Notes: generated from the sequence alone by a model not told the origin. A stretch of DNA of 64,000 bases from a virus (IMGVR_UViG_3300047330_000027:1-64000); one strand, 5' to 3'. Positions 873 to 37,747 are shown, counted from the stretch's first letter. Program-made: numbers and translations.

Positions 873-3278
873 CTACTGGATTGTGGGCTGCGGTGCAGGT
901 TGGCCGCCGCCAGGAGGCGCACCAGCGCCTTGCTGGGCCTGCTGTATCATCATCTGCTGCTTAATGGCCTGCGCTTGAGCCTGGAACGCGCACTGCTTCA
1001 GGAATGCGCGAACATTTTGATAGCCCGGGGAATTCGAGGTCTGCCAGTTGACCTGCATCCAGGTCTTCGCGATGACCGTGGCCATGTTGTAGTCTTCGAT
1101 GTCGGCGTCGGGCAGAATCGACGGCATAACTTGTGGCGCGCCGTTCGGACCAGGCACCACCTTCGGTCCAGTCTTCGCCAGCTCGTTCATCAGCAGTTTC
1201 AACCGGGCGCGTTCGGCTTCACCCTTCATCTTGATCTGTTCCGGCAGGATGTAGCGCGCGACCACCTTCTGCGTGTCCGGGTCAGAGAGCACATCGAGCA
1301 GCCACGGGTTCTTTTGCGCAGAAGAGAGCAGCGTCATAATGCGCTCCTGAATCTCCTCGTAGCTCGACGGGAAGCCCTCGTCGCTCTCGGCGTAGTCGAA
1401 GTTGCCGTTGAGCTGTGACTTCAGCAGCGTGGTCGTCTGCGTGCCACCGTCGATGTCGGACTGCTCGGTGATCTTCATCAGCTCGTCCATGTTCTCGACC
1501 GTGCATTTGACCGAGTTGACCGAGCGTTGCGCGTGCTCTTCCCTCATCTGGTCGAGGAAGATGGCCATCCGGCCCATGGCGGTTTTGAGCGCCTGGGCTT
1601 GGCCGCCCATGGTCTTGACGTTCGGGTCACTGCCGCCGAAGGTCTGGGGCTGCACGCCGGCCAGCGTCTGCGCGAGTTGAATAAGCTGCGGCCCGTATTC
1701 GAAGATTTTCGGGTCGATGTGAAACTCGGGCTGCCACAGCATGTCTTCGAGTTTGCTGCGGCCGCCGTCGGACTCCTTGCGGTAGACCGCTGTCATGTTG
1801 CCCGGGGTCATCGGTCGTTCTTCAAGTTGATCGACATCGAGGTAGTCCCCGTCGACCAGGATGGTGCCGAAGGCCAAGCGATCAAGGTACGCGTGGATCG
1901 AATTCGCGACGTCGTTGATGCGCTTCTGGATGTCGAGGGCAGCATCGCCCACGCCGAACGGGTACATGCCGAAGCCCTTGATGGTGCGGCACGCGGTCCA
2001 TTTATCGGTCATGCGCTCGCCCGCAACATCGAGCAGCAGTTCATCGCCCCAGATAACGAGTTTCACGCCTTCTGGGAACAGTTGGGTCAGTTGATCGCAA
2101 ACGGCCTGGTCATCGAGCACGGCAAAGGCTTCGGCCTGAAGCCAGCAGCGGGTGTAGGTTCCGCGGATCTCGGTGGTCGCGCCATTCATCGTGCCGGCCG
2201 GCGAGGACATCTGCGTGCGCAGCATGGCACCTTGCGAAGCAGGCCCGCTGGCAGCAGTGATGGCGCCGCCCACGATTTCCTTGTACGAATCCGGATACGC
2301 TTTGCGCACCGGGCCCACGTTGGTTTCAGCCGAGAAGTCGAGGTACTGCGACTCGTAGAGTTCTTCCGCATCGCAGTCGCAATCGATGTTGGCTCCCGAA
2401 AAAATGTCCTCGGCGGCCATCGAGTTCGGCACGGTGATCGTGCCGATCCTGGTCGGGACCATAGCGCTCTCGGCCTGATAGAAGTCCGATTGCGAGAACG
2501 GTGCTTTGCAATTCGGGCAGCGCGGCATCAGCGATTGGTTGGCCGCAATCGGCGTCGCCTCCCCGCACTGCTGGCAGACGTAGCGGTCGGGAGTGATCTG
2601 CTTCGAGACCATCGCCTTGATGGGCTGCTCCGACGTCTTCGCGCGGTTTGCGTCGACGATATTGCGCACGTAGGCGAAGTACACGCCGCCGATCCAGAGC
2701 CACAAGAGTTCTTTCCTCTGCAGGCTCTTTGCATTGTTCTGGCGCTCGTTATACGCGCGGATCGTCGAGGCTTTGGACGCGATGTAGATGTCTTGCTCGT
2801 TATCGGCGTCGTTTGGCTGGAAGCGGGTTTTCGCCAGATCGACCGACAGCGCAGCCACGAAGGTAAGGCCGAGCATCTGGTACACGTTGTCGTTATAGGC
2901 GTACAGGTCGATGTCTTTGCCGTCGGTCGAGATCGAATTCATGATCTCGGTGAGGGTGTCATTCGATCCAGGCGCGTTCTGGTCGTACAGGATGTAGGGA
3001 TTGTTCTTAAAGGTGTTGAGCGCGCGGTTGAAGCGCCCGAGGTATTCCTGACGCTTCGGGGCATTGGCCTCGATATGACGGCGCCGGCAATCGAGCAGCG
3101 CCGCAGCCAACTTGTCGGTAACGCCCTGCTTGAGAAGCCTCTTCTGGCGATCGCCGAGAGCAGGCGCATCCTGGGTAGCATCGTTTGAGGCAGGTGGCGT
3201 CATGCCCAGGATGCTGGGGTCGATCTTGACCATTCCCTGCGTCTGGTCCGGCGTCGTGATGGGAAAGCTGGTTGCCAT
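873..3278 (-). CDS. Portal protein with internal zinc-ribbon-like motif
   Basis: This 801-aa protein has the long mixed helical body of large portal proteins, including the stretches AALDIQKRINDVANSIHAY and GGQAQALKTAMGRM. Portals form the ring at the head vertex through which DNA is packaged and ejected. Around residues 236-260 there is a CxxC...CxxC pair (CQQCGE and CPNCKA), a zinc-ribbon-like insertion that is unusual for a portal. The C-terminus is Gln/Pro/Gly-rich. The neighbours agree: scaffold-like gene downstream, small virion genes upstream. The stop is TAG. Assignment as portal is fairly confident; membership of a named subfamily is not claimed. Confidence 0.85.
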   Translation of the reverse strand: MATSFPITTPDQTQGMVKIDPSILGMTPPASNDATQDAPALGDRQKRLLKQGVTDKLAAALLDCRRRHIEANAPKRQEYLGRFNRALNTFKNNPYILYDQNAPGSNDTLTEIMNSISTDGKDIDLYAYNDNVYQMLGLTFVAALSVDLAKTRFQPNDADNEQDIYIASKASTIRAYNERQNNAKSLQRKELLWLWIGGVYFAYVRNIVDANRAKTSEQPIKAMVSKQITPDRYVCQQCGEATPIAANQSLMPRCPNCKAPFSQSDFYQAESAMVPTRIGTITVPNSMAAEDIFSGANIDCDCDAEELYESQYLDFSAETNVGPVRKAYPDSYKEIVGGAITAASGPASQGAMLRTQMSSPAGTMNGATTEIRGTYTRCWLQAEAFAVLDDQAVCDQLTQLFPEGVKLVIWGDELLLDVAGERMTDKWTACRTIKGFGMYPFGVGDAALDIQKRINDVANSIHAYLDRLAFGTILVDGDYLDVDQLEERPMTPGNMTAVYRKESDGGRSKLEDMLWQPEFHIDPKIFEYGPQLIQLAQTLAGVQPQTFGGSDPNVKTMGGQAQALKTAMGRMAIFLDQMREEHAQRSVNSVKCTVENMDELMKITEQSDIDGGTQTTTLLKSQLNGNFDYAESDEGFPSSYEEIQERIMTLLSSAQKNPWLLDVLSDPDTQKVVARYILPEQIKMKGEAERARLKLLMNELAKTGPKVVPGPNGAPQVMPSILPDADIEDYNMATVIAKTWMQVNWQTSNSPGYQNVRAFLKQCAFQAQAQAIKQQMMIQQAQQGAGAPPGGGQPAPQPTIQ

Positions 3279-4959: not shown

Positions 4960-5277
4960 CTATTGCTTGGGGTTGGTGACGCTGTTGGGATTGGCGTTAG
5001 GGTCGAAAACTTGCCCGGTTGCCCCTGTTTCAGCGGGAGCGGGCTGGTTCCCGGTAAATTGCTGAGCTTGTCGGAAGCCGAGGAAGCCGATGGCGAGGGA
5101 GGGGAGATTGGCGCGGATGTTGAACGCAACGGTCGCAATAGCTTTGATAACCACTCCATACGCTTTCTTCGTCCTGGGGTATCCATCAAGGAACCTTTCG
5201 TTAGGCAGCACGTTCGCGATGAAGGAGCAGGCGGTCGAGATAAGCGAAAGGTCCTTCACGATTTTCAGAAATGTCAT
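4960..5277 (-). CDS. Possible holin or membrane-associated lysis protein
   Basis: 105 aa. The ATG overlaps the stop of the lysozyme gene (ATGA), so the two are co-translated. Two moderately hydrophobic stretches (LISTACSFIANVLP and ANLPSLAIGFLGFRQ) flank a basic segment, and the C-terminus is Pro/Asn-rich. Position next to a cell-wall hydrolase and the hydrophobic stretches suggest a lysis role, but the segments are weak, so holin is only a possibility. Confidence 0.6.
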   Translation of the reverse strand: MTFLKIVKDLSLISTACSFIANVLPNERFLDGYPRTKKAYGVVIKAIATVAFNIRANLPSLAIGFLGFRQAQQFTGNQPAPAETGATGQVFDPNANPNSVTNPKQ

Positions 5278-5786
5278 GTCGTCATCTCCTTCGCCTGCGA
5301 AGTCGCGATCGCGTTGTAGTTCTTGACCAGATCGGCCACGTATTGCTGGACGCCGGGCGAGGGATGGCTGGTGGGCGAACCGTGGTTGTAGACCTGCCCA
5401 ATCTGCTCGACGGTTGAAGCCTTCCAGTGCCCGATCACGTAGCGGTTGAAGAAGCCGACAAATGCCTGGGCGCACGCTTCCGGGTCAGCGTACAGCTCCG
5501 CGGGCGAATAGCCGGTTGCGTTGCAGGGCATCATCTGCCACGGGCCGTAGGAATAGGCTGCGGCTTTGCCGTACTGCTCGAGCAGCGGGATCTGCTCGTT
5601 CTCGGCATTGACGCCGCCCTCGTCGTAACTGCGCTCGTAGCGCGGCTTGCAGTTGGCGCCGGTCGTCGATTCGTTGGCAGCGATGGCCTGCATGAGCACG
5701 ACGCCATCGACGCCAGCCGGCGTTTTTAGGAGCAGCCCGTACTGGGCGCAAAGCGCGATGACCGTCGCTGTAGGTACGGTGTCCAT
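5274..5786 (-). CDS. Lytic transglycosylase-like endolysin
   Basis: 170 aa from the ATG at 5786; a TTG at 5807 could add seven residues. It shows the soluble-lytic-transglycosylase pattern: a catalytic-type Glu in AIAANESTTG (E39), a GPWQMMP motif at residues 81-87 matching the family's G-x-Q-x-M-P, and YNHGS near residue 135 in place of the usual YNAG. Such enzymes cut the peptidoglycan glycan strand. There is no signal peptide, so release would need a holin. The start codon lies in the exact 24-bp repeat shared with the scaffold-like gene and lacks a normal Shine-Dalgarno sequence. Confidence 0.8.
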   Translation of the reverse strand: MDTVPTATVIALCAQYGLLLKTPAGVDGVVLMQAIAANESTTGANCKPRYERSYDEGGVNAENEQIPLLEQYGKAAAYSYGPWQMMPCNATGYSPAELYADPEACAQAFVGFFNRYVIGHWKASTVEQIGQVYNHGSPTSHPSPGVQQYVADLVKNYNAIATSQAKEMTT

Positions 5787-5806
5787 GACGGTCGCAACTG
5801 TTACCA
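5783..5806 (-). repeat. 24-bp repeat spanning a start codon (copy 2)
   Basis: Exact copy of 829-852, again with the gene's ATG (5784-5786) in register. A weaker look-alike (ATGGTAAAAGT) occurs just upstream of the ATG at 58013. Confidence 0.7.
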
Positions 5807-5831
5807 ATAAATCGTGATTTTGGGAAGGGGT

Positions 5832-6215
5832 TTAGATCGTGATGTGAAACAAACGCGCGATCAGGTGCGCGAAAAGTCCGCCCGTGAGCACCCCGATCCA
5901 CTTGGCCATGACGTAGGTACCGCGCAACCACTTATCGCGGCGGGCTTCTTCAGAGGCGCGGATGGCCGTTTTGACGGCTTCCTGCCTGTCGCGCTCGTCC
6001 TGCTTCTGAAGCAGCATGTCGAGTTTGCTTTCGCGAGACCGCTCCCTGTCCCCGACAGCCTTCTGGAGTGTCTTGTCTTCCGTGCGCCACCCAGTAATCA
6101 ACTTTTGAAAGTTGTCGAGGCGCGCCGTCATTTCTTCCCTCGTCTCATCCAGGGCTTTCCTGAACTCCGACCTGGTGACGAATTCGGAGTCGCCTTGCTG
6201 GGGGACATGGCTCAT
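5832..6215 (-). CDS. Coiled-coil protein with C-terminal membrane anchor (holin/spanin candidate)
   Basis: 127 aa. Residues ~12-95 are highly charged and helical (SEFRKALDETREEMTARLD). The last ~25 residues contain one transmembrane segment (WIGVLTGGLFAHLIARLF). A tail-anchored coiled-coil beside the endolysin fits a holin or inner-membrane lysis component. The ATG lacks a strong ribosome-binding site. No exact family recognised. Confidence 0.7.
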   Translation of the reverse strand: MSHVPQQGDSEFVTRSEFRKALDETREEMTARLDNFQKLITGWRTEDKTLQKAVGDRERSRESKLDMLLQKQDERDRQEAVKTAIRASEEARRDKWLRGTYVMAKWIGVLTGGLFAHLIARLFHITI

Positions 6216-6276: not shown

Positions 6277-9200
6277 TCAGTGAAGGATCGTGCTCGGCAA
6301 AATCGTGACGGTGCCGGAACAGTTCAGGTTGACCCCGGTCATCGTGAAGGTGTACGCGGCACTGCCGACCGAGGAATTGGTGTACCCGCTTTTGACCGCG
6401 ATCGCCTGCACGGTTTGATTCGTAGACACCGCAATCGGGCCCGTGTAAAGGGTGCTTCCGGTCGTTGGCGTCGAGCCATTGGTGGTGTAGTAGATCGATG
6501 TGCCCGAGACGGCATCGCTAATGGCGACACTCTGCGCGGTCGAATAATTCCCTGCGGCCGGCGAGAAGGTAGGCGTAGGCAGCGTCCCGTTGATGACGTA
6601 AGCCGCGTAGGTCACCGTGCTGTTCGAATAGCCGCTCGCCTGCGTGAGCACGCCGATCGTCTCAGAAGAAGTCACAGAAATAGTCCCCGAGACCGGTGTC
6701 GATGGCGTGCAGCCCACCCCAATGCAGGACAGGAACGTAGCGCCTGGGGTCGAGCTTGAGGGCGTCACCGACTGCGCGGAGGCATAGCTTCCGGCAGCGG
6801 GGCTGAGGGTGGGCGCGGCGGCTTGCGGTGTGATCGTGTACGCCGCTGTGCCGACGCTGCTGGTCGTGTCTCCGCTGAGATAGCCAATCGCGTTAAGGGT
6901 CTGCGTGGTCGCGACGCTCACTGTCCCGCCATTCGCCAGGCTGGTGCCGTGCGTGCAGGCCGTCCCAGACGAGGTAGGCGTGCTGCCATCGGTTGTGTAG
7001 CACAGGCCAACACCACCCGAGGTTGAGCTGGTGATCGCGACGGTCTGCGCGCTGGTGTAGGTGCCGGCGGCCGGGGAAAAGGTAGGGGTGGCGACCTGCG
7101 GTGTGCTACCCCCGATTGCCCAGGTCATCGTGACCACTGAGCAAGGCGGCACACTCACCGAGCTGCCAGTAAAGGTCGTAGGTGTGGCATCGACGACAGA
7201 GGGCGCAATTGACCCTTGGAAGTAGGAAGAATTGTTGTTTGCGGTGCAGTTAGCAGCACTGCCTCCGAAGATTTTCTCCGTCACCGTCCCAGCAAAGGCG
7301 TCGGCACCGTTCGTCGTCACGGTGTACGTGGTCGACGGATCATAGTTGGTAATCACGCCGGTCGCGGACGTATTTGCCGAGTTCGCGTAGGAAGCGAAAC
7401 GCATGAGGGGAACGTTTGTCTGCGCCGGTACGCTGTCATTGCTGGTTCCCGCATAGCTCGCGATCACGGGCACGCCGCTAGTCGAGTCGGCCAGCAGGTT
7501 TGTGTTTGAGCCGATGTCGGTGTTCACCTGGCGCAGCAGGATCAGCTCTGGAAGGTCGATGCTGGTGTCCTGCGTATTGACTTGTCCCGGACCGTCCGGG
7601 ATGGCGGTATTGGCGTTCCAGGCGTTGAAGTAATATGACGTCCCGCTATTGTTCTGGTAGCCAGAGGTACCGAAATCGGATTCGGCGAAAAGATTCAGTG
7701 GACCGCCATAGGAGTCTTCGCGGGCCATGGCGATCAGAGACGAAATCGAGATGATCGCGCCTCCCACCGAATCGTACTGCTGGTTAATCTGGAGCTGTGT
7801 GGGCGAAGCGCTGCCACTTTGCGGGTTGGTGTTCGACTCGTATATTGCGGTGCCCATGCCGTAGCATGCCGTGTTGAAACTGTTCGAAAAATAGAAAGAA
7901 TGCGTCGTTTGATAATCGGTGCAGGACCCCTGGGTTGAAACCCGCGTCTGCTGGTAGTTGATCTCGCCCAGGCCACCGTTGATGATTGTGTTAGAGGTGT
8001 CGTTGTACGCAGTCATCTTGTAGAAAGCGCCGCCGGTCAGGTCGGGGCAGTAGGTCGGCGTCGAAGAAAGGTTCGTGCAGCCCATCTTTGCCATGGCCTT
8101 GTAGTTGAACTGCCCCTGCCCTGTCGCGTCGCCCTGCTGGTTGGTGATGAGCTTGTTTCTGGAGTTGTAGTTTGGGTCTGTTTTGAACAGATGGACGAAA
8201 GGTCCCATGAGCGTCCCATAGGCCGTCCCACTCCCAGAGTTTTCATATATCCCGGCGCCATCGTTCCACCCCTCGTTGCCGAGTTCGAAAAAGGGCGTGA
8301 TGTTCGCCGCGGTGAGCATCGAGTTCCAGCTCTGGGAGGACGTGCCCGGGCAACCGGATAGGTTGCAGCCCTCGCTCATGAACGTGGAAAGCGTCGCCGC
8401 TTCATTGATCCCACTAATGAGGCTGGTCGTGATCAGCAGCTTGGGCAGGGTAATCCAGCATTTCGTGATTCCGAGCGCATAGCAGAGGTTGAGGTCGTCC
8501 TGGACGCCATAGCTGGGATAAGCAAGCAACTTGCCAGCGCCGCCGCCATAGGGCAGTCCGGAATTCGAGAAAGTGACCTGGCCGTCCGGCATCAAATAAT
8601 GCGTGAGCGAAACCGACCACATCTCGGGGTACATGAAACGGATCGAGTTGAGGTTGAGGCTTTTCAGCTTTTTGAAATCTGCATCACGGAAGGCTGTCGT
8701 GTTGCCCGGATAGGCTGTCCCTTCCGTAAAATGGATGCCCCACACATAGGCGGTTGACCCAGACGCACTGATATTCAAGATGGCGTTGTAGTTCGACTGC
8801 GTGCCGTTCTCAGTCAATGCCATCGTGTGTGTGACGTGGGTCCAGGTCGTCCCTGGAGTGTCCGTCCCGCTTGCGCCCGTGCCGGGCAGATTGGTTCCGT
8901 TTCGCTGCACGGACCACGGGATGGAGCAGCCGGCGGTGGGACATTTTTCCCAGAAATCGAGGACATACGAGCCGTTGAAGTTGACGCCGATGCTGTTGTG
9001 ACCACCAGCCGGGTCTGTCCAAAATGGAGACCCCTGATCGATGCCGTAATTGATCGATCCAGCGGTGGTGGGAATGGAATACGCCTGCACTGCGCCCGTC
9101 ACACTCGGCAGGTCTGTGGTTTCAAATGAAATGGCCGATGGCACATTCGTGTCGTAAACGTTTGGGGCCAGACTGCCCGCAACCGGCTGCCAGCGCACAA

Positions 9201-9693
9201 AGAGCATATCGGCGTCGCTTGCTGAACTGCAGGCTGCGCCGGTACTCAAAGGGTTGCTCAGAGTAAACGTCATGCCGGTGCTGCTGTTGCTAGTGTTGGC
9301 GGTGATCGTTCCTGTGCCGATGACGTTGCCGGTGGAGGCTTGGATCGCGATGTAATTCGCAGGGTTCGCGCCGACAAGCTGATTGACGCCGAACGGATAC
9401 ACGCCCGAGATTGACTGGGAGTTATACCAGACGGTCGAGGAATTGCTGCTGCTCGAGCTGCAGGCAGCCGTGAACGTGAACTCTGCCGGCTGCATGGAGC
9501 CGCCGAGTTCGAAAGCATAATCCCGGAGCAGGATCGTTTGCCTGTTGCTGCCAGACGGCCCATGGACGACGCCGATCTTGCTGACGTTCGTGATTTGCAC
9601 CGTTGTCGGGATGGTCCAAGTTACTTGAGCCCAGGTGATCCCCGGCGACAACAGCAGCAGCGTGATAGCGAGGTTTTTAAGAAGCTTTTTCAC
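6277..9693 (-). CDS. Exported glycoside-hydrolase-like protein with chitobiase-type repeats
   Basis: 1138 aa, starting at a GTG with AAGGA upstream. The N-terminus is a textbook Sec signal peptide: a basic KK, a leucine-rich core (ITLLLLSPGI) and TWA|Q cleavage. The middle has a glycosidase-like stretch with FFELGNEGWND near residue 474; an Asn-Glu pair of this kind is the acid/base in several (beta/alpha)8 glycoside hydrolases. The last ~330 residues hold three or four repeats of the chitobiase C-terminal type (TFSPAAGTYTSAQTVAI, YYTTNGSTPTTGSTLYTG). Many cysteines are consistent with folding outside the cytoplasm. It is the last of three signal-peptide genes in tandem. It may be a receptor-binding or polysaccharide-degrading protein; the export signal is odd for a virion protein. 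Confidence 0.75.
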   Translation of the reverse strand: MKKLLKNLAITLLLLSPGITWAQVTWTIPTTVQITNVSKIGVVHGPSGSNRQTILLRDYAFELGGSMQPAEFTFTAACSSSSSNSSTVWYNSQSISGVYPFGVNQLVGANPANYIAIQASTGNVIGTGTITANTSNSSTGMTFTLSNPLSTGAACSSASDADMLFVRWQPVAGSLAPNVYDTNVPSAISFETTDLPSVTGAVQAYSIPTTAGSINYGIDQGSPFWTDPAGGHNSIGVNFNGSYVLDFWEKCPTAGCSIPWSVQRNGTNLPGTGASGTDTPGTTWTHVTHTMALTENGTQSNYNAILNISASGSTAYVWGIHFTEGTAYPGNTTAFRDADFKKLKSLNLNSIRFMYPEMWSVSLTHYLMPDGQVTFSNSGLPYGGGAGKLLAYPSYGVQDDLNLCYALGITKCWITLPKLLITTSLISGINEAATLSTFMSEGCNLSGCPGTSSQSWNSMLTAANITPFFELGNEGWNDGAGIYENSGSGTAYGTLMGPFVHLFKTDPNYNSRNKLITNQQGDATGQGQFNYKAMAKMGCTNLSSTPTYCPDLTGGAFYKMTAYNDTSNTIINGGLGEINYQQTRVSTQGSCTDYQTTHSFYFSNSFNTACYGMGTAIYESNTNPQSGSASPTQLQINQQYDSVGGAIISISSLIAMAREDSYGGPLNLFAESDFGTSGYQNNSGTSYYFNAWNANTAIPDGPGQVNTQDTSIDLPELILLRQVNTDIGSNTNLLADSTSGVPVIASYAGTSNDSVPAQTNVPLMRFASYANSANTSATGVITNYDPSTTYTVTTNGADAFAGTVTEKIFGGSAANCTANNNSSYFQGSIAPSVVDATPTTFTGSSVSVPPCSVVTMTWAIGGSTPQVATPTFSPAAGTYTSAQTVAITSSTSGGVGLCYTTDGSTPTSSGTACTHGTSLANGGTVSVATTQTLNAIGYLSGDTTSSVGTAAYTITPQAAAPTLSPAAGSYASAQSVTPSSSTPGATFLSCIGVGCTPSTPVSGTISVTSSETIGVLTQASGYSNSTVTYAAYVINGTLPTPTFSPAAGNYSTAQSVAISDAVSGTSIYYTTNGSTPTTGSTLYTGPIAVSTNQTVQAIAVKSGYTNSSVGSAAYTFTMTGVNLNCSGTVTILPSTILH

Positions 9694-9701
9694 GGTTTTC
9701 C

Positions 9702-12700
9702 TTAGTTGATCGTGTAGAGAATGCAGGCCGGGTTCGTGGTGGGAGCGACGGGCAAGGTGATTGTGAAACTCGTGTTCGCGGTGATCGCGCTGACGTATGG
9801 AGGCAACAGGCTCGCGATATTAGCCGGCGCCGTGCATCCGACGGTCGTGTAAGTGAATGAGAACGTGCTTGTGGCCGTCACAATCGTGGTGTTGATCGTG
9901 AGGGTGGTTCCTGATGCCGCAACCTGCACCTGTCCGGCGCTGCTTGCGCCGCACACTGCTGGAGAGGCCGTGCTCGAGCATTTACCGCTCAAGCGCACTG
10001 CGGCCGCCTGAATGTTGCCGACCACGCTGTTGCCGGCGCCGGTGCCGAAATCGAACCATCCCGAGCCAAGCGTCGAGTCCCTGGACCATGCCGTATCGCC
10101 GTTGATTTTGTAGGCGTACGAGGTGCCATTCAGGTTGGGACTCCCCGAGATAGTCGCGCCGTTTGCGGTAAGCACGCCCGTCGAAGAAACGGTAAATTCG
10201 CCCGCCCCATTCGTATACCCAGCGAGCAGGTTGCCTGTGAACCCGCTCGGCGCGTTGGCACCGATCAGCGTACCGCCGGTTGAGAAGGTCGTCGGCTCGG
10301 TGTTTCCAGTGGCGTCCACATAAACGTAAGGGTAGGCCGTGCTCGCCGTGCCCGCCGTGTACGGAGAGCCGCGAAGCCAGATGCCGGGGTTCGAAGCCGC
10401 TCCGTTGCCAGATTGAATGATCCCGTTCTGGAAGTTAGCCAGGCCGAAGGTCCTGGTCCCGAACCCTCCGAAGCCTGTGTTGACCTCGAAGTAGTTGCTG
10501 CCCGGGGTGCGCACCGCAAAGATGTCGCCGCTCTGCGTGTTGTCCCCGTAGATGGTGACATTGGTCGTTTGACCGTTGTCCGCGGTAGCTTGGCCGCCGA
10601 CGGTCATTTGCGTATTCGAGGTCGCGGTGGTGTTCGCGGTGCCCACATTGAAGTTGGTGACCCCTGACGCGGTGTTGTTGTTGACGCCGACCGTGCCTGA
10701 GCCGTTGTCGGTCGCGTCCGGAGCTGTAGAGATCGTGGTGCCAGCCGCGCTGTAATAGCCAAAGTGGTTGGCAGTGCCGCTGCTGACGGTGCCGCTGCCT
10801 CCTCCGCTTGCAGGCCCGGCATTGACCACCTGCCAGCGCGAGGTGGTCGAGTCGAACTTGAGCGAAACGTACTGTCCTTGCGTGCTCAGCGCGTAGGTCC
10901 CGACAGATCCCGAAGCCCCGATGTAATTGCCATTGCCCGCGAGAGTGCAGACGTTGGCTGTCGAATCGACCTTGATGATGGTGTACGTGGTTCCCGAGTA
11001 GGGCGCAGCCACCAGGTTATTGCTGAAGGCCCCGGAGGTCGTGTCGCATTCAACGTAACCGGTGTTGACACTGAAATTCGTGGCCGCGGTGATGTAGGTT
11101 GGCGTGTCCACCAGGCCGTTGCTTTGATAGAACGTGGAGTCCGTCGCCACGCCGCCGCCGGATGTGCCGAGGTGCAGGATGTTGTCGGCGCCGCCGTTGC
11201 CCATCGCGACCCAGTCGAAGCCGTTTGAGTGATCGCGGACTTTGAAGCTGAACCCCGTGGGCACTTGAATGGTGCCCGTCGTTGCCGTGCCCGTGCCGAG
11301 CCGCAGGTAGCCGCTTCCTGTGAACAGGATGTTGCCAGAGGATGAGAGGGTGCCCGCGCTCACGGTCCCGCCGAAGGTGCCGGTGTTGGTCGAAATCGTT
11401 CCGTCGATCGCTCCCTGCGTGGTTCCCACCTTGAGCACGCCAGGACCGCCATTGGTGAGGAAGTCATTTCCGGACCAGCTCAGCGCGTTGCCCGAAGCCA
11501 GTGGCAGGCCTGTGGTGAACGGGCTGCCCTCCGCGACCAGGGTTCCGCTCGCGTCGTCATCCCAGCGCTGCGTAGTGCAATATCCGGCGAGCGGCGCGGG
11601 CAGACCTCCGACCATGTTGTACGGATAGCTGATGGTGAAGCTGTTGCCGGTCGTCTGGCAAACTTGGAGTTTCATCTCCGTATTCGCCGTCTGCGATGTG
11701 ATGGCGATCGTGGTGTTCTGCGTCAGCGTCAGCGTCTGGTACAAGCCGTTCTGCTCGTTGACGGTCACCGTGGCTGCATCCGTCAGTGCGTAGGCCGCGC
11801 CTTCGGTCGTCGTCCCGTAGTCCGGCTGATTGCCACGAATGGTGATGTGCTGCGGCATGCCTGCGCCATACGTGATCGGGATCGTGGTGCTATTGGCGGA
11901 AAGCTGACGCCAGTCGTTGCCCATGAAGCTGATGTAGTCGATGCCGGTGCCGACGTTCGCGAAGTTCGCGCCGCTGGTGCCAGAGCCGTTCGCGAGCATG
12001 ATCGAATTTGAGATTTTCGATCCGTTCGAAGCGGTCCCGATGTTGAAGCACGTAGAGCTGACGCCATCGCACTCGATCCTGTCGAATGTGGCCAGGCCCG
12101 TGAGATAAGCGGCATATTGTGGCGCGAAGGTTCCCCAGACGTGAAGGTTCGAGAAGAACGTTGTCCCGCCGGTGTAGCGGACGCCGATCTGGAAGCTGCG
12201 CGAAGTGCCGCCATCGAAGCGGTTATCGGTCGCGGACGTATCAAACAGCCAAGCCGTCTGCGGACGGTTGGTCGACGTGTAATCAGCCGTCGCCGCCGTC
12301 GCATCGAGGTCATACAAATGCGCGCCGGTAAACGTACCGCCCGTCGCAGAGTGACCGAAGTGGTAAGCGTGCGCTCCGACGCCATAAGTCGGCCTGGTGA
12401 CATTGATGCGCGCTGAGCGGTCGTCATTGACGCGAGGAATCGCCAGACCATCGGTGGCTTCCCAGTTGGGATTGATCGTCAAATCTTTCACCGAGCAGCC
12501 GTCGGCTTCGGTCGAGGATGTATCCGGCTGACCGACCGCGTAAGGCACCACATAAGAATCAGAGCCGGTTTCGGTGCCAGAGCCAGCGGTGGTGCTAGAC
12601 GGCACAGAGAAATGTGTCGCATCGACCACGGTCGCGACCACGGGAGTCGTCGCATTGAGCGCAGAGTTGGCTGTGAGCCCGCTGAAGATAAGTTTGGTGG

Positions 12701-15700
12701 TCCCGGACACCATATTTGCCGTCGACGGGATCGTGAAGGTGGTGGCCGTGCCTGACGCGGTGTAGGCGGAAATCGTGTCCGTCTGGGTCGAAAGGTTCAG
12801 CGTGACCAACCCAACGCCCATGCCCCACAGGTTCGTGCAAACGTTATTCGAGTGGATCGTGAGACCCGCCGTCGGGGTCCCGATACTGTAACTGCCGGCC
12901 GCCAGGTAGATGGTTCCCCCGCCCAGCGCATCGATCAGGTTGACTGTGTTCTGCAGGTTGCCGGATGGGTAGGCGTAATACACGTTGACGTGCGACTGCT
13001 GCTGCGTGGTGACGCCGCCCGTGGTCGTCACCGTGTCGTAAGCGATGCCCGTCTGCGGCGTCGGATCCGGTGAAATGATGGTCGGGTTAGTGGGCGACGC
13101 CAGCGCCTGCCATTGATACGCAGCGCCGGTCGGGGCTGTGGGCGCCGAGCCGGAATACGTAAAGTTGATGGCTCCGTTCGTCGAGCCGGCCACCGCAAGG
13201 CCACCGCTATCGCTGACGGTCACGGTCGTGCCGTTATCGCAAACTGAAGAAGAAGCAGTCGAGGTGGTCGCTGTTGCCGCTTTCGGGAGACAGGTGGGCG
13301 TCTGTCCGGTAAGGCCGCCGCCGCTCCCGCCTGAACCGCCGCCCATCTGATACCAGCGATTCGATTGATAGGGCCCTTCGTTCACCAGCGTGATCGGCGC
13401 GGTTGTGAGCGCGGTCGACGCTCCGGACGTCGGGTAGATATTGCCGCCCGTTGTGATGGTGGCGGCCACGCTGCCGTACGCAACAACTTCCAGGTGCTGA
13501 CCCGGGATGCCGTGGGTGATCGTCGTGATCGGGGTCGTGGTGTTGATATTGATCGAGGTCAGACCGCTGGCGTCCACGTTGTCCGCGGTCGCTCCGATCC
13601 CCGGTCCCATGGTCGGGAAAATCACGCGCGAAGACGCATGGTCCCCGTAGAAAGACCCGCAGTATGCCTGGTCATTCGCGGTGGTGTTTGCAGGCGTGCC
13701 GACGTAGGAAAGGCCCGAGTAGACGTTCGGCGAGCCGGACCCGCCATTTTGCAGGTCGCGAATTTGGCACTCTTTGTAGGACTGCCCGAAAGTCGCAGCC
13801 GAAGTTGCCGGCGCAACGTTTGAGACCGAGTTGGCTTGGCCGATGTCGGTAATATCGGCGCAGCCGGTGGCCGTGCCTGCGTTGTAGTTCGATTGCAGGG
13901 CAGTCGTATCGGTGCAGGAGCTGGTTGGCACAATGCCGGTCATGGTTGTTCCCGTGACCGCGCCGGTGATGATGACCGCCTCTCGCGACGAGGCGTCGTT
14001 ACGTAAGTCTTCCCAGCGGCTCTGCGGGGCGCTGTTGACCATGCCAACGTCGCTGAGCTGGGTGAAGATGTGGTTGCTGTGCCCGTTTGTGTTTTGCGCA
14101 TAGTACGCAGCGCAGTTCGGATAGCACGGTCCTGCGGCGTGGCTGCTGTTGAAGCCCTGAACGGCATCCGTCGCGTAGACCCAATCGACTTCATCATCGA
14201 CGCTATCGTCTTCGGCAGTGCCGCAAACCCCAGTGGGCGACGAAGTAACTGCGAGCGCCCCGGTAACGTAGGCCTGGCAGCCCTTGAGCTGGTTCGCCGG
14301 ATAACCAAGGTTTCGCATGTAGCCGTTGAAGCCCTGATTCAACACAGCTTGGCCGCCGAATCCGTTGCCGAAGCCGGAAATGCGATCAATTAACCAGTAA
14401 TTGCTGCCCAGGTTGTCCCAGATGCCGATGTCGTAGGGTCCCGACGTAATTCCCGAGCCGGCAATCGCGAAGTCATGGAGGTAGACGTAATCTGCGCCGC
14501 CTGAAGCCGGGTGATATGTGGTGCCATTTGAACATGTCAGCCCGTCGGCTGCTACGTGCCCCTCGATCATGGCCGTGGTCGCATTGGTGTGCTGTAACCC
14601 AGGTTTGCTCGAAAACGACTCGCCCCCGAAGTCGACGTCACCCCAAAGCAAAAGTTGGGCGATATTGATGGTGATGCCTGAAGGCAGCGGAATACGATAA
14701 GCCGCCGGCGCCAGCCCCATCTGGTACTGGCATTCGCCGTAATCGATCGTCGCCTGGATGACCTGCTGCGGCGTGTATCCCGAAGTGCCGGCGATGGCTG
14801 CTTTGAGGCCGCCGTCGTAGGCGGGGCTCATCGGGTCGTACACCACTTTCGGGCCTGACTCCATCGCTTGCACAATGAAGTCGCCGGCCGAGCTGAGCGT
14901 GAACGTTGTCGGGTTGAACGTCAGGCTGGAGCTGCCCTGAAACGCCGTAACACCGCTGTTGGCAAAATTGAGGGCGTATGCCGGGCCAGCAGGGTTCGCC
15001 GCCGTGCCACCGCCAGAAGGCGTGCCTACGGTCAGTGGCCCTGCCGCCGTGGTGCTTGGGTTCATGAGCGCCTGCCCGGGCAATGTCCAAGCGGCGTAGG
15101 GCGCGAGGCAGTAAGGCGGACCGTACTTCGGGGACGCAATCGCGAGCCCGCCCTGGCAAGTTCCGGACGCGCTCGGGTTTTGCGTCCACACGATCGTCTT
15201 GTCGGTCGTGTTGAGTTGCGAGCAAACCCATTTGGGGGCGCCCGAAACGGCGTCGCTTTGCGTGTATTGAGCACCAGGAACGCAGGTGACCCGGGGCAAT
15301 CCGAGGCCGGTGATCGAAGATGTGGCGCTGGCCGAGTAGCTATCGAACGAATAGCTGGACTGGTTGATTGCCGTCTGCGGCAGGAGCAAATAGATCGTGG
15401 CGCCTGTAGGGTCGGTCACGGTGATGGTGAACACCAGGCCGGCGGGCGAGGCCGTTGTTGTATTCAGGATCTGCGTTGACGGAAACGCGCCCGCGGTCAC
15501 CGTCGCGGTGTATGCGGTGCCTGGCCCCTGGAGAGTGCCGCCGAGCGGCGTATAGGCCACAGGCGTCCCGGAAGCGTTGGTTGGAATGAAATTGATCTTG
15601 CCCGAAGCGAGTGGGTTCCCTGTGTTATCGAGGACCTTGGTGCCGGATGCCGGGATGGTGGCTGTCTGGGCTGCGGCAAGGCCTGCGGTGGCGAAAAGGA

Positions 15701-15728
15701 TTGCCGAGAGGAAGAGTCGCTTGAGCAT
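9702..15728 (-). CDS. Giant exported beta-helix protein
   Basis: 2008 aa. I chose the ATG at 15728 because AGGA precedes it and it begins a signal peptide (KR, then LFLSAILFATAGLAAA|Q); the frame is open further upstream but without a plausible start. Residues ~330-620 and ~930-1200 look like two right-handed beta-helix (pectate-lyase-like) domains: GGGTIYLAAGSYSIGTP and HNNV/NTT-rich rungs typical of phage tailspikes. The rest is Gly/Ser/Thr/Asn-rich beta repeats as in fibres. Its stop lies eight bases before the next GTG. It is likely a surface adhesin or tailspike-like protein; the signal peptide leaves open whether it joins the virion or is secreted. Confidence 0.75.
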   Translation of the reverse strand: MLKRLFLSAILFATAGLAAAQTATIPASGTKVLDNTGNPLASGKINFIPTNASGTPVAYTPLGGTLQGPGTAYTATVTAGAFPSTQILNTTTASPAGLVFTITVTDPTGATIYLLLPQTAINQSSYSFDSYSASATSSITGLGLPRVTCVPGAQYTQSDAVSGAPKWVCSQLNTTDKTIVWTQNPSASGTCQGGLAIASPKYGPPYCLAPYAAWTLPGQALMNPSTTAAGPLTVGTPSGGGTAANPAGPAYALNFANSGVTAFQGSSSLTFNPTTFTLSSAGDFIVQAMESGPKVVYDPMSPAYDGGLKAAIAGTSGYTPQQVIQATIDYGECQYQMGLAPAAYRIPLPSGITINIAQLLLWGDVDFGGESFSSKPGLQHTNATTAMIEGHVAADGLTCSNGTTYHPASGGADYVYLHDFAIAGSGITSGPYDIGIWDNLGSNYWLIDRISGFGNGFGGQAVLNQGFNGYMRNLGYPANQLKGCQAYVTGALAVTSSPTGVCGTAEDDSVDDEVDWVYATDAVQGFNSSHAAGPCYPNCAAYYAQNTNGHSNHIFTQLSDVGMVNSAPQSRWEDLRNDASSREAVIITGAVTGTTMTGIVPTSSCTDTTALQSNYNAGTATGCADITDIGQANSVSNVAPATSAATFGQSYKECQIRDLQNGGSGSPNVYSGLSYVGTPANTTANDQAYCGSFYGDHASSRVIFPTMGPGIGATADNVDASGLTSININTTTPITTITHGIPGQHLEVVAYGSVAATITTGGNIYPTSGASTALTTAPITLVNEGPYQSNRWYQMGGGSGGSGGGLTGQTPTCLPKAATATTSTASSSVCDNGTTVTVSDSGGLAVAGSTNGAINFTYSGSAPTAPTGAAYQWQALASPTNPTIISPDPTPQTGIAYDTVTTTGGVTTQQQSHVNVYYAYPSGNLQNTVNLIDALGGGTIYLAAGSYSIGTPTAGLTIHSNNVCTNLWGMGVGLVTLNLSTQTDTISAYTASGTATTFTIPSTANMVSGTTKLIFSGLTANSALNATTPVVATVVDATHFSVPSSTTAGSGTETGSDSYVVPYAVGQPDTSSTEADGCSVKDLTINPNWEATDGLAIPRVNDDRSARINVTRPTYGVGAHAYHFGHSATGGTFTGAHLYDLDATAATADYTSTNRPQTAWLFDTSATDNRFDGGTSRSFQIGVRYTGGTTFFSNLHVWGTFAPQYAAYLTGLATFDRIECDGVSSTCFNIGTASNGSKISNSIMLANGSGTSGANFANVGTGIDYISFMGNDWRQLSANSTTIPITYGAGMPQHITIRGNQPDYGTTTEGAAYALTDAATVTVNEQNGLYQTLTLTQNTTIAITSQTANTEMKLQVCQTTGNSFTISYPYNMVGGLPAPLAGYCTTQRWDDDASGTLVAEGSPFTTGLPLASGNALSWSGNDFLTNGGPGVLKVGTTQGAIDGTISTNTGTFGGTVSAGTLSSSGNILFTGSGYLRLGTGTATTGTIQVPTGFSFKVRDHSNGFDWVAMGNGGADNILHLGTSGGGVATDSTFYQSNGLVDTPTYITAATNFSVNTGYVECDTTSGAFSNNLVAAPYSGTTYTIIKVDSTANVCTLAGNGNYIGASGSVGTYALSTQGQYVSLKFDSTTSRWQVVNAGPASGGGSGTVSSGTANHFGYYSAAGTTISTAPDATDNGSGTVGVNNNTASGVTNFNVGTANTTATSNTQMTVGGQATADNGQTTNVTIYGDNTQSGDIFAVRTPGSNYFEVNTGFGGFGTRTFGLANFQNGIIQSGNGAASNPGIWLRGSPYTAGTASTAYPYVYVDATGNTEPTTFSTGGTLIGANAPSGFTGNLLAGYTNGAGEFTVSSTGVLTANGATISGSPNLNGTSYAYKINGDTAWSRDSTLGSGWFDFGTGAGNSVVGNIQAAAVRLSGKCSSTASPAVCGASSAGQVQVAASGTTLTINTTIVTATSTFSFTYTTVGCTAPANIASLLPPYVSAITANTSFTITLPVAPTTNPACILYTIN

Positions 15729-15739
15729 GTATTTCCGTC

Positions 15740-17035
15740 CTATTGGAGAGCGGCGCAGGTGATGGTTACCGTGTTCCCAGCGGCCCCGTCGTGAATGTTG
15801 GCGATGTAGTAGCCGAAGCCAGTGGAAGAGGTGCTGTTCAACCCGAAGGTGGTCTGGGTCATGCCGGTGGAGTCGTTTGTGCCGCCCATGAAAGGAAATT
15901 GCAGGGTGCAGACGGGCGTATAACTGCCGCTGATGGTGTTGGACCAGGTTTGTGTTCCAGCGCAGTTCTGATCGGTGTCGCCGTAGTGAATCAGCGCGCA
16001 ACTGGTGAAGTTCGCGACCGCAACGACGTTGTGAGGAAAGGTAATCGTGCAGGTCCCACCGAGCGCGCAGTTTGTCCCGTTAACGGTGGTCGAGGAATGC
16101 GCGAGCTGGCCGTTCGTGATCGACCCGGTGATGCCGGCGGCCGGGACCGAAGAAGCTGTCGTTGCGTTTGTTGCCGTCGCTGCTGTGGTTGCGGAGGTCG
16201 CGTTGCCGTTGAGTGCCCCGTAGAAATTGGGCGCCGTCACACTGATTGGCAGGCTGAGCTGACCGCTCGCGCTGAGGGTCATGATCGGGCTGCCGGGATT
16301 GCCATTGAAGTTCGTGCCGCCGATGGCAAACCAATCGAATCCTCCGCCTCCGGTTCCGTGCTGGTCGAAGAAGTCGCCTTCTCCCCCGCCGAGTTGGTTC
16401 CAGCCCATCTGGGTGATATTTCCGTTGATCGAGTTGTAATAACCCGTCCCCAGGAGCGGGTTGCCGTACACTTCCCCGCCCAGCACGGAACCGTAGAACG
16501 TGCCATCAAACTGATTGGCCGATACGGTCCCGGTGAAATTCGCATTCCCTCCGGAAAGCAGGCCGCTGACGGTCAGATTGTTCACGGCAGCATCCTGCGG
16601 TCCGGTGGGAGGCACGGGCACGGGCAGCGTTGCGCATGGCTGCGCGGTGTCGAGATTGAAGGGATTGACGGTCGAGAGGATGTCAAAGCAGACCGGCTGT
16701 CCGCTCGGAATGTTGTTGTAGAGGAAGGTGACGTTGTAGCGCGTCCCGCCCGTGACGGTGCCGCACTCGATCACGTCATTCGGCCAGAGTGTGCCGGTGA
16801 TGAGACCCGTGGTGTCCGGGGTCAAGGTGACCGTCGAGCGCACGGGGGAAAATTGGCCAACCACGCGCGGGATGTTGCCGCCACAGTAAGCTAGATCGAA
16901 CTTTACCTGGACAAGCTGGGTGGGGTTCCCGGCGATATCGCCGACGTGTCCAGTGACCGCAACCGTGGTCGCCGCGTGCGCGATCGCAGCAGCGGTGAGG
17001 ACCAAAATGGACAGCAGGCGGGCAAGTTTTCGCAT
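15740..17035 (-). CDS. Exported fibre-like protein
   Basis: 431 aa with a clear signal peptide (MRKLARLLSILVLTAAAIA, then HA|A). Residues ~25-130 form a beta domain with the pattern LITGTLWPNDVIECGTVTG and YNVTFLYNNIPSG. A Gly/Asn/Ala-rich repetitive shaft (GNATSATTAATATNATTASS) and a Cys-containing C-terminal domain follow. It is the first gene of the three-gene exported-protein unit and the start of the leftward late operon in this window. The ATG has no strong Shine-Dalgarno sequence. A fibre or collar role is possible. Confidence 0.75.
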   Translation of the reverse strand: MRKLARLLSILVLTAAAIAHAATTVAVTGHVGDIAGNPTQLVQVKFDLAYCGGNIPRVVGQFSPVRSTVTLTPDTTGLITGTLWPNDVIECGTVTGGTRYNVTFLYNNIPSGQPVCFDILSTVNPFNLDTAQPCATLPVPVPPTGPQDAAVNNLTVSGLLSGGNANFTGTVSANQFDGTFYGSVLGGEVYGNPLLGTGYYNSINGNITQMGWNQLGGGEGDFFDQHGTGGGGFDWFAIGGTNFNGNPGSPIMTLSASGQLSLPISVTAPNFYGALNGNATSATTAATATNATTASSVPAAGITGSITNGQLAHSSTTVNGTNCALGGTCTITFPHNVVAVANFTSCALIHYGDTDQNCAGTQTWSNTISGSYTPVCTLQFPFMGGTNDSTGMTQTTFGLNSTSSTGFGYYIANIHDGAAGNTVTITCAALQ

Positions 17036-30399: not shown

Positions 30400-30978
30400 A
30401 TGGCACTCGTACTCGCATTCCCAGCCACTCGGCTGGAGCCTGCTGAATATAAATCTCTCGATCCCGTCTATTGCGCTCACTGCCATCAGGAGTGGGACGA
30501 AGACGACCACCGCGACGAATTCACCGAAGTCGACGGCGCGATCTACTGCAACGAAACCTGCCTGCGCATCGCGCGTCTCGAAGCGATCCGCACGGAAGCC
30601 AAGCATCGCCTCGCCACCGCGCTCGAAGAGCTGATCGCCCGCGCCTACTCGCTGTCCCGGGAATATGGAGAGGTCGATGAGGATGAGCACGCGCGACCGA
30701 TCTCGATTCTTGAAGACGCCGCCGAGCACCTCGACGGATTCATTCACAACTATCCCACCGGCTATCGCGACGGCGGCATCATGCTCTCGGTCGTCGAGAA
30801 AGACAAGATCGAGCGCTCGCTGAAGGAATGCCTGGAGCGCGACTACCGCGAGCTGACCGCCAAACCGCACCTTGGGTACATGATTGCTCCGCGCATGGCA
30901 CGTGCCGGCGTTTCTCTGATGATGCTCGACAACCAAACGCGCGAGAGCCAAGGGCAGGAAGCGAAATGGAGCCTGTGA
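30400..30978 (+). CDS. Zinc-binding hypothetical protein
   Basis: 192 aa. CAHCHQEWDEDDHRDEFTEV with a later YCNETCLRIA gives a C4-type site at residues ~25-52. A long helical region follows (ATALEELIARAYSLSREYGE, KIERSLKECLERDYRELT). It precedes the exonuclease gene, and the TGATG junction couples them. A recombination-linked role is possible. Confidence 0.72.
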   Translation: MALVLAFPATRLEPAEYKSLDPVYCAHCHQEWDEDDHRDEFTEVDGAIYCNETCLRIARLEAIRTEAKHRLATALEELIARAYSLSREYGEVDEDEHARPISILEDAAEHLDGFIHNYPTGYRDGGIMLSVVEKDKIERSLKECLERDYRELTAKPHLGYMIAPRMARAGVSLMMLDNQTRESQGQEAKWSL

Positions 30979-31880
30979 TGGGACTGACCGAAAACCTCGC
31001 ACAATACCGGGAAATCAAAGCCGAGGCGCGAGACCGCCGCCAATTCCTCGGCGGAAGCGACATCGCGGCCGTGCTCGGCGTGAGCCGCTGGCAAACGCCG
31101 TATGGCCTTTACCACGAGAAGACGGCGCAGGGACCGCCGCAACTCGACCCCGAGAAAGAGAAGTTCTTCCGCCGGCGCAAGATGCTCGAACCCGTCATCA
31201 TCGACATCGGGCGCGTGGAATACGGACTCGACATCATCCAGCGCAACCAGGTGCATGCCGACCCGCAGTATGACTGGATGCGCGCCGAAATCGACTTCGA
31301 GTGGCGCGATGACGACGGCAGTATCCAGAATGCCGACGCCAAGAGCGCCAGCCCGTTCACTCGCGATAAATGGGGCATCGAGCAAGGCGATGACGAGATC
31401 CCGATGGAGTACACGGCGCAGTTTCTCTGGGGCCAGATGGTCACCGGTCGTGAGCTGACGCTGTGTGTCACCCTCATCGGCACCGACGACGCGCGTATTT
31501 ATCGCGTGAAGCGGGACGATTCCTTGATCGCACACATGCGCTCCGAAGCCCTGAAGTTCTGGGAGCGCGTGCAGGAGCGCAGGCCGCCGCCGATCACCAC
31601 GCTTGCCGATGCGCGGCTGGCTTTCCCCCGCGACGCTGGATCGACAGTTGTCGCGAATCCCGAGATATGCGAAGCCCTGCAATCGCTGGCGGAGCTGAAT
31701 CTCGAAATCAAAACTGCCGAGATGAAGGCCGACGAGTTGAAAGCCAAGATCGAGGCACACATGGGCACCGCAGCCTACCTGGTCGATGACCAGGGCGACA
31801 AGTTAGCAACCTGGAAGACGCAGCAGCGCGCAGCCTACTCGGTGCAAGCCGGCGAATCGCGCGTATTTAGAACCTACTAA
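30978..31880 (+). CDS. YqaJ-type recombination exonuclease
   Basis: 300 aa from the ATG at 30978 (TGATG overlap); 30966 is an alternative. FLGGSDIAAVLGVSRWQTPY is the family's N-terminal signature. YDWMRAEIDFEWRDDDGS followed by NADAKSAS is the metal-binding core, where most members have an acidic residue-x-Lys as E-x-K; here it reads D-A-K. The C-terminus has a helical EMKADELKAKIEAHMG tail. YqaJ nucleases resect double-stranded ends to give the single strand that RecT anneals; RecT is the next gene. Confidence 0.85.
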   Translation: MGLTENLAQYREIKAEARDRRQFLGGSDIAAVLGVSRWQTPYGLYHEKTAQGPPQLDPEKEKFFRRRKMLEPVIIDIGRVEYGLDIIQRNQVHADPQYDWMRAEIDFEWRDDDGSIQNADAKSASPFTRDKWGIEQGDDEIPMEYTAQFLWGQMVTGRELTLCVTLIGTDDARIYRVKRDDSLIAHMRSEALKFWERVQERRPPPITTLADARLAFPRDAGSTVVANPEICEALQSLAELNLEIKTAEMKADELKAKIEAHMGTAAYLVDDQGDKLATWKTQQRAAYSVQAGESRVFRTY

Positions 31881-31891
31881 GGAGCCCCACG

Positions 31892-32830
31892 ATGTCCACA
31901 GCAGCACTCACGCAAGCAACCGGCGCGCCCCAGGGAGCCATGGAGCGCAAGACGAAACCCTTAACCTTTCCCGAGATGCTCGAACGCTATAAAGGGCAGA
32001 TCGCTTTAGCTCTACCGAAACATCTCAACCTCGAACGTATGGCGCGCATTGCGCTTACCGCGTTCAAACAGAACAAGAAACTGGCCGAATGCACACCCGA
32101 GAGCGTCTTCGCTTCGGTCATTCTGGCGTCGCAGCTCGGGTTGGAGCCTGGCGTCCTCGGCCAGTGCTATCTGATTCCCTACAAGGATCAGTGCACGCTG
32201 CAGATCGGCTATCAGGGGCTGCTCGATCTCGCGCAGCGGACCGGCCGCATTCGCTCGATTGAGGCGCACGTCGTCCATCGCAAGGATGAGTTTCGCTATG
32301 AGATCGGAGCCGACCAGCCGCTGTCGCACAAGCCCGAACTGTTCGATGATCCAGGCGAACGTGTATTGTGCTACGCGATCGCGAAACTCGACAGCGGCAC
32401 AACCATCGTTGAGGTGATGACGAAACGCGAGATCGAGCGCATTCGCGACCGCTCACAGAATGTCATCAACGCGAAGAAGTACGGGAAGGCTACGCCGTGG
32501 GACACCGACACCGAAGAGATGTGGCGCAAGACGCTTATCCGGCGCATCTGCAAGTACCTCCCGAAGTCGATCGAACTCACGATGGCGACAGCGCTTGAAG
32601 ACACCAGCGACCGCCGCGGTGCGCAGGACCTGTCGCTCGCGAACGCGATCAACATGGACTGGGCGCCTCCTGCGCTTGGCGACGGCAACGATGAACCAGC
32701 AGGCAAAACCATCGAGGCTACTGACAAGGCGAAGGAAGAGACGAAACCGACCGAGACTGAGACGAAGGCCGTCGTTGCCGAGACGCAGCAGGTTCAGCAG
32801 CAAGAACTGGTCGCGGCAGGCGACTGGTAA
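31892..32830 (+). CDS. recT: RecT single-strand annealing protein
   Basis: 312 aa, AAGGAG before the ATG. Typical RecT core: SVFASVILASQLGLEPGVLG, QCYLIPYKDQCTLQIGYQGL, LDLAQRTGRIRSIEAHVVHR, MWRKTLIRRICKYLPKSIEL. The acidic, Gln/Glu/Thr-rich C-terminus is variable in the family. Works with the adjacent exonuclease in phage recombination. Confidence 0.93.
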   Translation: MSTAALTQATGAPQGAMERKTKPLTFPEMLERYKGQIALALPKHLNLERMARIALTAFKQNKKLAECTPESVFASVILASQLGLEPGVLGQCYLIPYKDQCTLQIGYQGLLDLAQRTGRIRSIEAHVVHRKDEFRYEIGADQPLSHKPELFDDPGERVLCYAIAKLDSGTTIVEVMTKREIERIRDRSQNVINAKKYGKATPWDTDTEEMWRKTLIRRICKYLPKSIELTMATALEDTSDRRGAQDLSLANAINMDWAPPALGDGNDEPAGKTIEATDKAKEETKPTETETKAVVAETQQVQQQELVAAGDW

Positions 32831-32852
32831 GACACTCGGCAAAAAGAACCGT

Positions 32853-32916
32853 GGACTAGTTCGCAACCTGGAAGGCCGAACTAGTCCAGTGACACACCAA
32901 GAAATCGGAGGCAACA
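32853..32916 (+). other. CTGGAAG-loop hairpin plus GGAGGCAACA
   Basis: Perfect 11-bp stem GGACTAGTTCG/CGAACTAGTCC (32853-32863, 32877-32887) with loop CAACCTGGAAGGC. GGAGGCAACA follows at 32907-32916, directly before the GTG of the ATPase gene. It has the longest stem of the family. Confidence 0.75.
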
Positions 32917-32917
32917 A

Positions 32918-34765: not shown

Positions 34766-35049
34766 CTGAATTCGAGAAAGAACTCGCTTCTCTCATCAAC
34801 CGTCACAGCAAGGAAAACGGAAGCATGACGCCCGATTTCATCCTTGCCTCTTACCTGACGGAGTGTTTGGCCAACTTCGACCGCATCATGCTGTGGCGCC
34901 AGAAGTGGTATTCGCCTGAAGGCGTGCCGGCAGCCGAAAGGATCAACGGGCCCAAGCCTACCCAGGCTCGCCGCGAGCCCTGTTTCGATTGCGACACTGA
35001 CGGCAGATGCACGATGAACTGCGGACCGCGAATTGAGGCCAAGCCATGA
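34762..35049 (+). CDS. Conserved small phage protein with Cys motif
   Basis: 95 aa starting MTEFEKELASLINRHSKENG; ATGA overlap with the ATPase gene. From memory this N-terminus (through SMTPDFILASYL) is a common phage family of unknown function found in early regions. The C-terminus CFDCDTDGRCTMNCG adds four cysteines. Confidence 0.78.
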   Translation: MTEFEKELASLINRHSKENGSMTPDFILASYLTECLANFDRIMLWRQKWYSPEGVPAAERINGPKPTQARREPCFDCDTDGRCTMNCGPRIEAKP

Positions 35050-35366
35050 GCATGCAGGTGTACCTGGTGACCGCGAGCGGCAGCACGACCGGGCAAAGCA
35101 TTTTCGCGTATGACCCGGATGTGCCCATCGGCAACACGGGCAGTTCGCTCTCGCTTTCGGGCAACCTGATCCAGTTCGATAACGACGACAGCGACAACGT
35201 GAACCTCATGGTCACGCTCTACGCGAACCAGGACCAGGCGGTTTTTACCGGCATGATTCCCTACTCGGCCTTCGCGCCCGGCAAGAGCCCGAGCATGCGC
35301 GTGAACCTTGCGACTGCCGACAAGTGGTGCACCGTGCTGTTTCAGCTCTTGGAGGCAGCGGCATGA
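35046..35366 (+). CDS. Hypothetical protein
   Basis: 106 aa, ATGA overlap. Beta-rich (MQVYLVTASGSTTGQSIFAY, VNLMVTLYANQDQAVFTGMI). No family recognised. Confidence 0.68.
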   Translation: MSMQVYLVTASGSTTGQSIFAYDPDVPIGNTGSSLSLSGNLIQFDNDDSDNVNLMVTLYANQDQAVFTGMIPYSAFAPGKSPSMRVNLATADKWCTVLFQLLEAAA

Positions 35367-35659: not shown

Positions 35660-35660
35660 G

Positions 35661-37732: not shown

Positions 37733-37747
37733 AGATCACATTGTCTA

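Follow-up and report, generated by a model that had tools for sequence, protein, structure and literature searches.

Signal peptides on a block of fibre-type proteins in a podovirus-like phage suggest export from the cytoplasm

The window analysed here, positions 1-64000 of the 67,861-base virus record IMGVR_UViG_3300047330_000027, contains three adjacent minus-strand open reading frames (ORFs) of 431, 2008 and 1138 amino acids (aa), here called P1, P2 and P3, which are separated by gaps of 8-11 bases and each of which begins with a predicted Sec signal peptide (SP). P1 (15740-17035) has an ATG start and carries the SP MRKLARLLSILVLTAAAIAHA, followed by A (16973-17035); cleavage may take place either between AHA and A or between AIA and H, both being candidate sites. 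P2 (9702-15728), likewise with an ATG start, carries MLKRLFLSAILFATAGLAAA, followed by Q (15669-15728), and P3 (6277-9693), a GTG-started ORF, carries MKKLLKNLAITLLLLSPGITWA, followed by Q (9628-9693). In each of the three N-termini a basic n-region leads into a hydrophobic core, behind which an AxA-type site follows. A ribosome site of AGGA type precedes the P2 start and an AAGGA the P3 start, and a weak one lies before P1. All three proteins contain cysteines: 10 in mature P1 and 28 in mature P2, both even numbers, and 19 in P3, an odd one. The original prediction had described three consecutive, cysteine-containing giant proteins with canonical signal peptides; this description holds, except that "giant" suits P2 and P3 and not the 431-aa P1.

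Signal peptides were scored with a rule-based predictor for Sec export and signal peptidase I cleavage, built for the present analysis, which asks for a positive n-region, an 8-residue core with a mean hydropathy of at least 1.9, and small residues at -3 and -1 in an AxA-type cleavage site at residues 15-36; gene starts were picked among several candidates. The predictor recognises the positive controls OmpA, PelB and beta-lactamase, and P1, P2 and P3 all score. Under the strict rule, P22, K1F and KP32 together have 28 genes that reach 400 aa, and none of these scores, nor does any of the 26 in Tunturi_3-5 (0/54 across six control phages). In Tunturi_1 and Tunturi_2, 8 of 18 genes of this size score, about four of them independent because the two phages are near-identical, and among viral loci selected solely by their CHB_HEX repeat the count is 46/242, compared with 3/242 for composition-shuffled N-termini. 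Given the results for shuffles and control phages, SPs on three of three neighbouring genes lie far beyond chance, and a chance origin is ruled out. The AxA-Q pattern (the hyphen marks the cleavage point) is also present among host secreted proteins.

The cysteines of such proteins bear on whether the signals are used. Fibre-like proteins, defined by a Ser+Thr+Gly+Asn content above 33%, have a median Cys content of 1.61% when SP-bearing and 0.76% when SP-less (p=1e-8). Once they are clustered at 40% identity, an even Cys count is found in 50 of 55 SP-bearing fibre-like clusters (p=2e-10) versus 32 of 64 SP-less ones, a result that is unchanged over predictor cut-offs of 3.6-4.6. A preference for even Cys numbers marks exported disulfide proteins and has served as a criterion for DsbA substrates (PMC7678975). 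A second test compares the same repeat in both classes of protein: CHB_HEX repeats contain 0, 1, 2 or 3 Cys in 26, 1, 23 and 1 cases when the protein bears an SP, and 0, 1 or 2 Cys in 42, 35 and 4 cases when it does not (Fisher p=1e-8); two of the four SP-less exceptions with two-cysteine repeats (L042, L069) look like missed SPs. Cysteines paired in this way are the hallmark of proteins that fold with disulfides outside the cytoplasm. SP-less fibres reach the medium after lysis too, so that post-lysis exposure does not explain the difference, whereas export before folding does. VKOR and a DsbA-like Thioredoxin_4 protein are encoded in 7/7 Acidobacteriota genomes tested. Even-Cys parity was not significant among the host secreted proteins of 400 kb of a Tunturiibacter-type genome (15/26), a small sample contaminated by membrane proteins, which neither helps nor hurts much. 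The two cysteine tests, together with the recurrence in independent phage lineages described below, make it very probable that SP-bearing fibre-type proteins are exported, and the central idea of the original prediction, real signals serving export, stands on them.

With P3 as query, tblastn identified Tunturi_1 and Tunturi_2, podoviruses that form plaques on Tunturiibacter, in which SPs are present at the start of gp12, gp13, gp14, gp16 and gp17 (gp16 seen in Tunturi_2), a block lying between gp11, a tail gene, and gp21, the endolysin gene; the main text of the Tunturi phage paper makes no mention of signal peptides (PMC11924767). A CHB_HEX-based scan of IMG/VR, the contigs of which are phage by classification, yielded 79 loci (some call sets overlap), some with SP-less CHB_HEX tail proteins and others with whole runs of SP-bearing genes. 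The SP state agrees within contigs in 0.68 of pairs versus 0.51 after shuffling, a value reached in 0 of 5000 shuffles. Two phage loci (L079, L180) possess SP-bearing blocks just upstream of homologues of the portal-like protein of the window (28-29% identity), and another (L044) has two SP genes beside homologues of its 491-, 188- and 3364-aa proteins. L071 is a relative of Tunturi_1/2 (head protein 24%, gp11 30%, gp12 51% in the N-terminal domain). In the gp12 family (L071 and two further Tunturi_1/2 relatives, L187 and L189) the SP is retained with diverged letters; next comes a conserved module, in which two cysteines are invariant, and then a divergent remainder. The SP-bearing fibre blocks of these relatives lie mostly beside head and lysis genes. 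Among 396 Acidobacteriota genomes, a prophage adjoining chromosomal genes (G271; C158, L172-L173) has the head module of the window phage, with four collinear homologues of structural proteins of the window, and behind these come fibre genes of SP type together with an endolysin gene. This prophage supports an Acidobacteriota host for the phage type, and we infer such a host for the phage of the window. Pattern scans of IMG/VR revealed no close relatives of P1, P2, P3 or the portal-like protein, a pattern scan for Tunturi gp11 gave no match, and a search of the 396 genomes for the gp12 domain gave weak matches only, the clearest being to a host Oar-type protein. The comparison with related phages and acidobacterial genomes that had been suggested at the outset has returned SP fibre blocks in Tunturi_1/2, in the loci just named and in the prophage, and the recurrence of such sets in several Acidobacteriota phage lineages is confirmed. 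Two relatives of Tunturi_3 (L019, L026) have SP-bearing fibre genes, whereas the tail genes of Tunturi_3 itself (L004) are without them, which suggests that SPs were gained or lost within this lineage.

Judged from its neighbours, the SP block occupies the tail-fibre position of a podovirus. Directly downstream, on the same minus strand, lies a gene for a holin-like protein of 127 aa (5832-6215) with a coiled coil and a C-terminal hydrophobic segment, followed by a lysozyme/transglycosylase-like protein of 177 aa (5274-5807), which has a homologue beside the SP block of L079 (39%), and by a portal-like protein of 801 aa (873-3278, minus strand), of which a weaker homologue occurs in the G271 prophage. 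The three have no Pfam match, and their names derive from inspection and from the context of their homologues. A head-protein-like gene (L006) is found further along the virus record. The block has portal-like and lysis-like neighbours, as expected of tail fibre or tailspike genes in a late region, and L079, L180 and G271 share the synteny.

Composition and the sequences behind the SPs point in the same direction. Every fibre-like gene of Tunturi_2 has an SP and no SP-less fibre candidate was found; in the window, the sole SP-less protein of fibre-like composition is the 491-aa structural protein. Consequently no ordinary fibre seems to be left in either phage. What is conserved in the gp12 family is the module behind the SP, an arrangement also seen in virion-anchored fibres. 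The mature N-terminal module of P1 (16613-16972, minus strand) has a homologue at the extreme N-terminus of a fibre-type protein of phage contig L030 that lacks an SP (29% identity across 119 aa; E=9e-4 when 1393 local proteins are searched), and this shared module contains four Cys in P1 and none in L030. P3 and an SP-bearing protein of another phage (L059 family) share 28% identity across 1000 aa, and the C-terminus of P3 (6343-7107, minus strand) carries the chitobiase-type repeats that had been predicted (CHB_HEX_C_1 / Fn3_assoc, Pfam PF13290, E=2.8e-25, 88.5 bits, curated cut-off 22). These repeats match gp17 of Tunturi_1/2, and the last cysteine of P3, C1125, lies beyond them. The predicted folds fared less well. 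P2 belongs to no recognisable family, with neither a match in a Pfam profile search nor a homologue; neither P1 nor P2 has a Pfam match for a beta-helix or trimeric fibre fold, and an AlphaFold model of P2 1040-1440 from a single sequence (predicted local distance difference test, pLDDT, 32) was not used, so that the beta-helix claimed for P2 is unconfirmed. Of the glycosidase-like region claimed for P3 there is a conserved pair of glutamates only, E474 (ELGNEGWN) and E619 (AIYESN), which enclose the segment at 7837-8274 (minus strand) and whose motifs, GNE.WN and AIYE.N, are shared with one homologue, L059. They are a possible catalytic pair of clan GH-A, a hypothesis for which the P3 core gave no Pfam or PDB sequence match; its AlphaFold model from two sequences (pLDDT 31) was not used. 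The core has no bacterial homologue in the genome scan. On the best reading of these sequence data, P1, P2 and P3 would be tail fibre or spike-type proteins of a podovirus-like Acidobacteriota phage.

The remainder of the window offers some further observations. A large-terminase-like gene (43166-45046, minus strand) consists of ORFs of 245 and 380 aa in the same frame, split by a single TAG at 44309-44311, for which readthrough, recoding, a true split and a sequencing error are alternatives. The 3364-aa protein (45561-55655, minus strand), of which a homologue occurs in L044, combines a Strawberry-notch-type helicase (PF13872/PF13871) with a methyltransferase-like segment and resembles giant DarB-type anti-restriction or ejected proteins. 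A replication arm on the plus strand (30828-42241) encodes RecE/RecT-like recombination proteins, an SbcC-like protein, two DNA methyltransferases and a DnaB-like helicase.

How exported fibres might become part of a virion can be outlined as follows. P1, P2 and P3, each with a host-style Sec SP, would be synthesised late, pass unfolded through SecYEG and be cut by signal peptidase I after AxA and before Q or A. They would then fold in the periplasm, where they are presumably retained, with disulfide bonds introduced by the VKOR/DsbA-type system of the host, while DNA-filled particles are built in the cytoplasm without the fibres. As soon as the inner membrane is breached by the holin, these particles would meet a concentrated supply of exported fibres and bind them, probably via the conserved N-terminal module just behind the SP. 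That virions collect the exported fibres at lysis is, in our view, the leading mechanism, with a probability of about 0.5. Somewhat below this we place a more comprehensive proposal of two-compartment assembly, in which heads and tail stubs are cytoplasmic, the complete fibre/spike set passes through Sec, acquires disulfide bonds and is held in the periplasm, particles are infectious only after picking up fibres during lysis, and the system either originated in or spread through several lineages of Acidobacteriota phages. Several points weigh against collection at lysis. We know of no attachment mechanism for fibres that arrive after export, and moving a 2008-aa protein through Sec is costly. 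The Cys count of P3 is odd, the homology between P1 and L030 is weak, and the folds of P2 and P3 are unconfirmed. The window moreover has distant relatives only, so that other members of the type served to judge conservation.

The original prediction had offered both a periplasmic or post-lysis assembly step and secretion or surface display as explanations. Both survive, and the assembly step is favoured because the phages show no obvious fibre gene without an SP and the N-terminal modules have the behaviour of tail-fibre anchors. The principal rival, which we consider unlikely although it ranks above all others, is that the proteins are exported but never enter the virion, acting instead as free or host-surface factors that degrade or bind glycans, clear exopolysaccharide and aid release and spread, or as soluble adhesins. 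The evidence for export fits this equally well, and the SP-bearing proteins include suitable domains: CHB_HEX repeats, matches of pectate-lyase-like and beta-helix type for gp14 and gp17 of the Tunturi phages, a GDSL lipase in L189 and CBM5/12 in L059. However, virions of Tunturi_2, the fibre-like proteins of which are all SP-bearing, would then be without a recognisable fibre or spike, and the conserved N-terminal and variable C-terminal parts of the gp12 family are typical of virion-anchored fibres. Much less probable is an uncleaved signal or a display on the surface of infected or lysogenic cells, with the proteins serving as superinfection blockers or decoys. Phage envelope proteins can indeed be encoded next to tail-fibre genes, lambda Lom being an example (PMC12309495), but the AxA cleavage motifs are clear, no anchor or lipobox follows the signal, and several very large proteins per phage in a late operon by the lysis genes would not be expected. 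Slightly less probable again is that the hydrophobic N-termini are not export signals and represent virion-assembly or membrane-insertion segments, which are removed or buried during cytoplasmic morphogenesis, much as the host protease OpdA, according to the annotation, removes the first 20 residues of P22 gp7. Such segments leave unexplained the even-Cys pattern and the contrast of 0/2 versus 0/1 Cys in the same repeat, and the AxA-Q pattern is one that host secreted proteins share. Captured host secreted genes, an option of the original prediction, or a mis-assembled contig are very improbable: CHB_HEX repeats and signals of the AxA-Q style do occur in Acidobacteriota genomes too, but the genome scan gave no bacterial counterpart of the P3 core, the genes hold a tail-fibre position by lysis genes in several unrelated phages, and the same arrangement in the complete genomes of plaque-forming Tunturi isolates largely refutes host capture as a whole explanation and an assembly artefact alike.

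Tailed-phage morphogenesis is taught as purely cytoplasmic, and tail parts are not expected to leave the cytoplasm. An entire class of phages with exported and oxidised host-recognition proteins would break this rule and add a new meeting point to virion assembly, and it would become explicable how cysteine-rich spikes can fold. It would follow that SignalP combined with cysteine parity is able to detect proteins of this kind in metagenomes, and that co-infecting phages could share fibres, or fibres be blocked while still periplasmic. The proposal is directly testable in the cultured phages Tunturi_1/2.

Among known systems, Tunturi_1/2 (gp12-gp17; PP887698, PP885685; PMC11924767) are closest to the window: they share a block of large fibre-type proteins with SPs between tail and lysis genes, CHB_HEX repeats (gp17) and an Acidobacteriota host. 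In our searches, however, their proteins are non-homologous except for the CHB_HEX repeats, and their head genes are not detectably related. The tailspikes and tail fibres of ordinary podoviruses assemble in the cytoplasm. P22 gp9, the K1F endosialidase and KP32 gp37/gp38 are likewise large polysaccharide-directed proteins with a corresponding genomic role, and their genes close the structural region (with lysis genes nearby in K1F and KP32), but in contrast to the proteins of the window they have no SP. Bacterial DsbA substrates (PMC7678975) resemble the present type in combining an SP with an even Cys number, whereas the latter is phage-encoded and located in a late structural/lysis region. 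A search of the openly searchable literature gave no precedent for export signals on a tail-fibre set; it did bring up SP endolysins of Gram-positive phages (PMC8878798) and lambda Lom, phage proteins that also use host Sec export, but these are lysis enzymes or membrane proteins and not a tail-fibre set.
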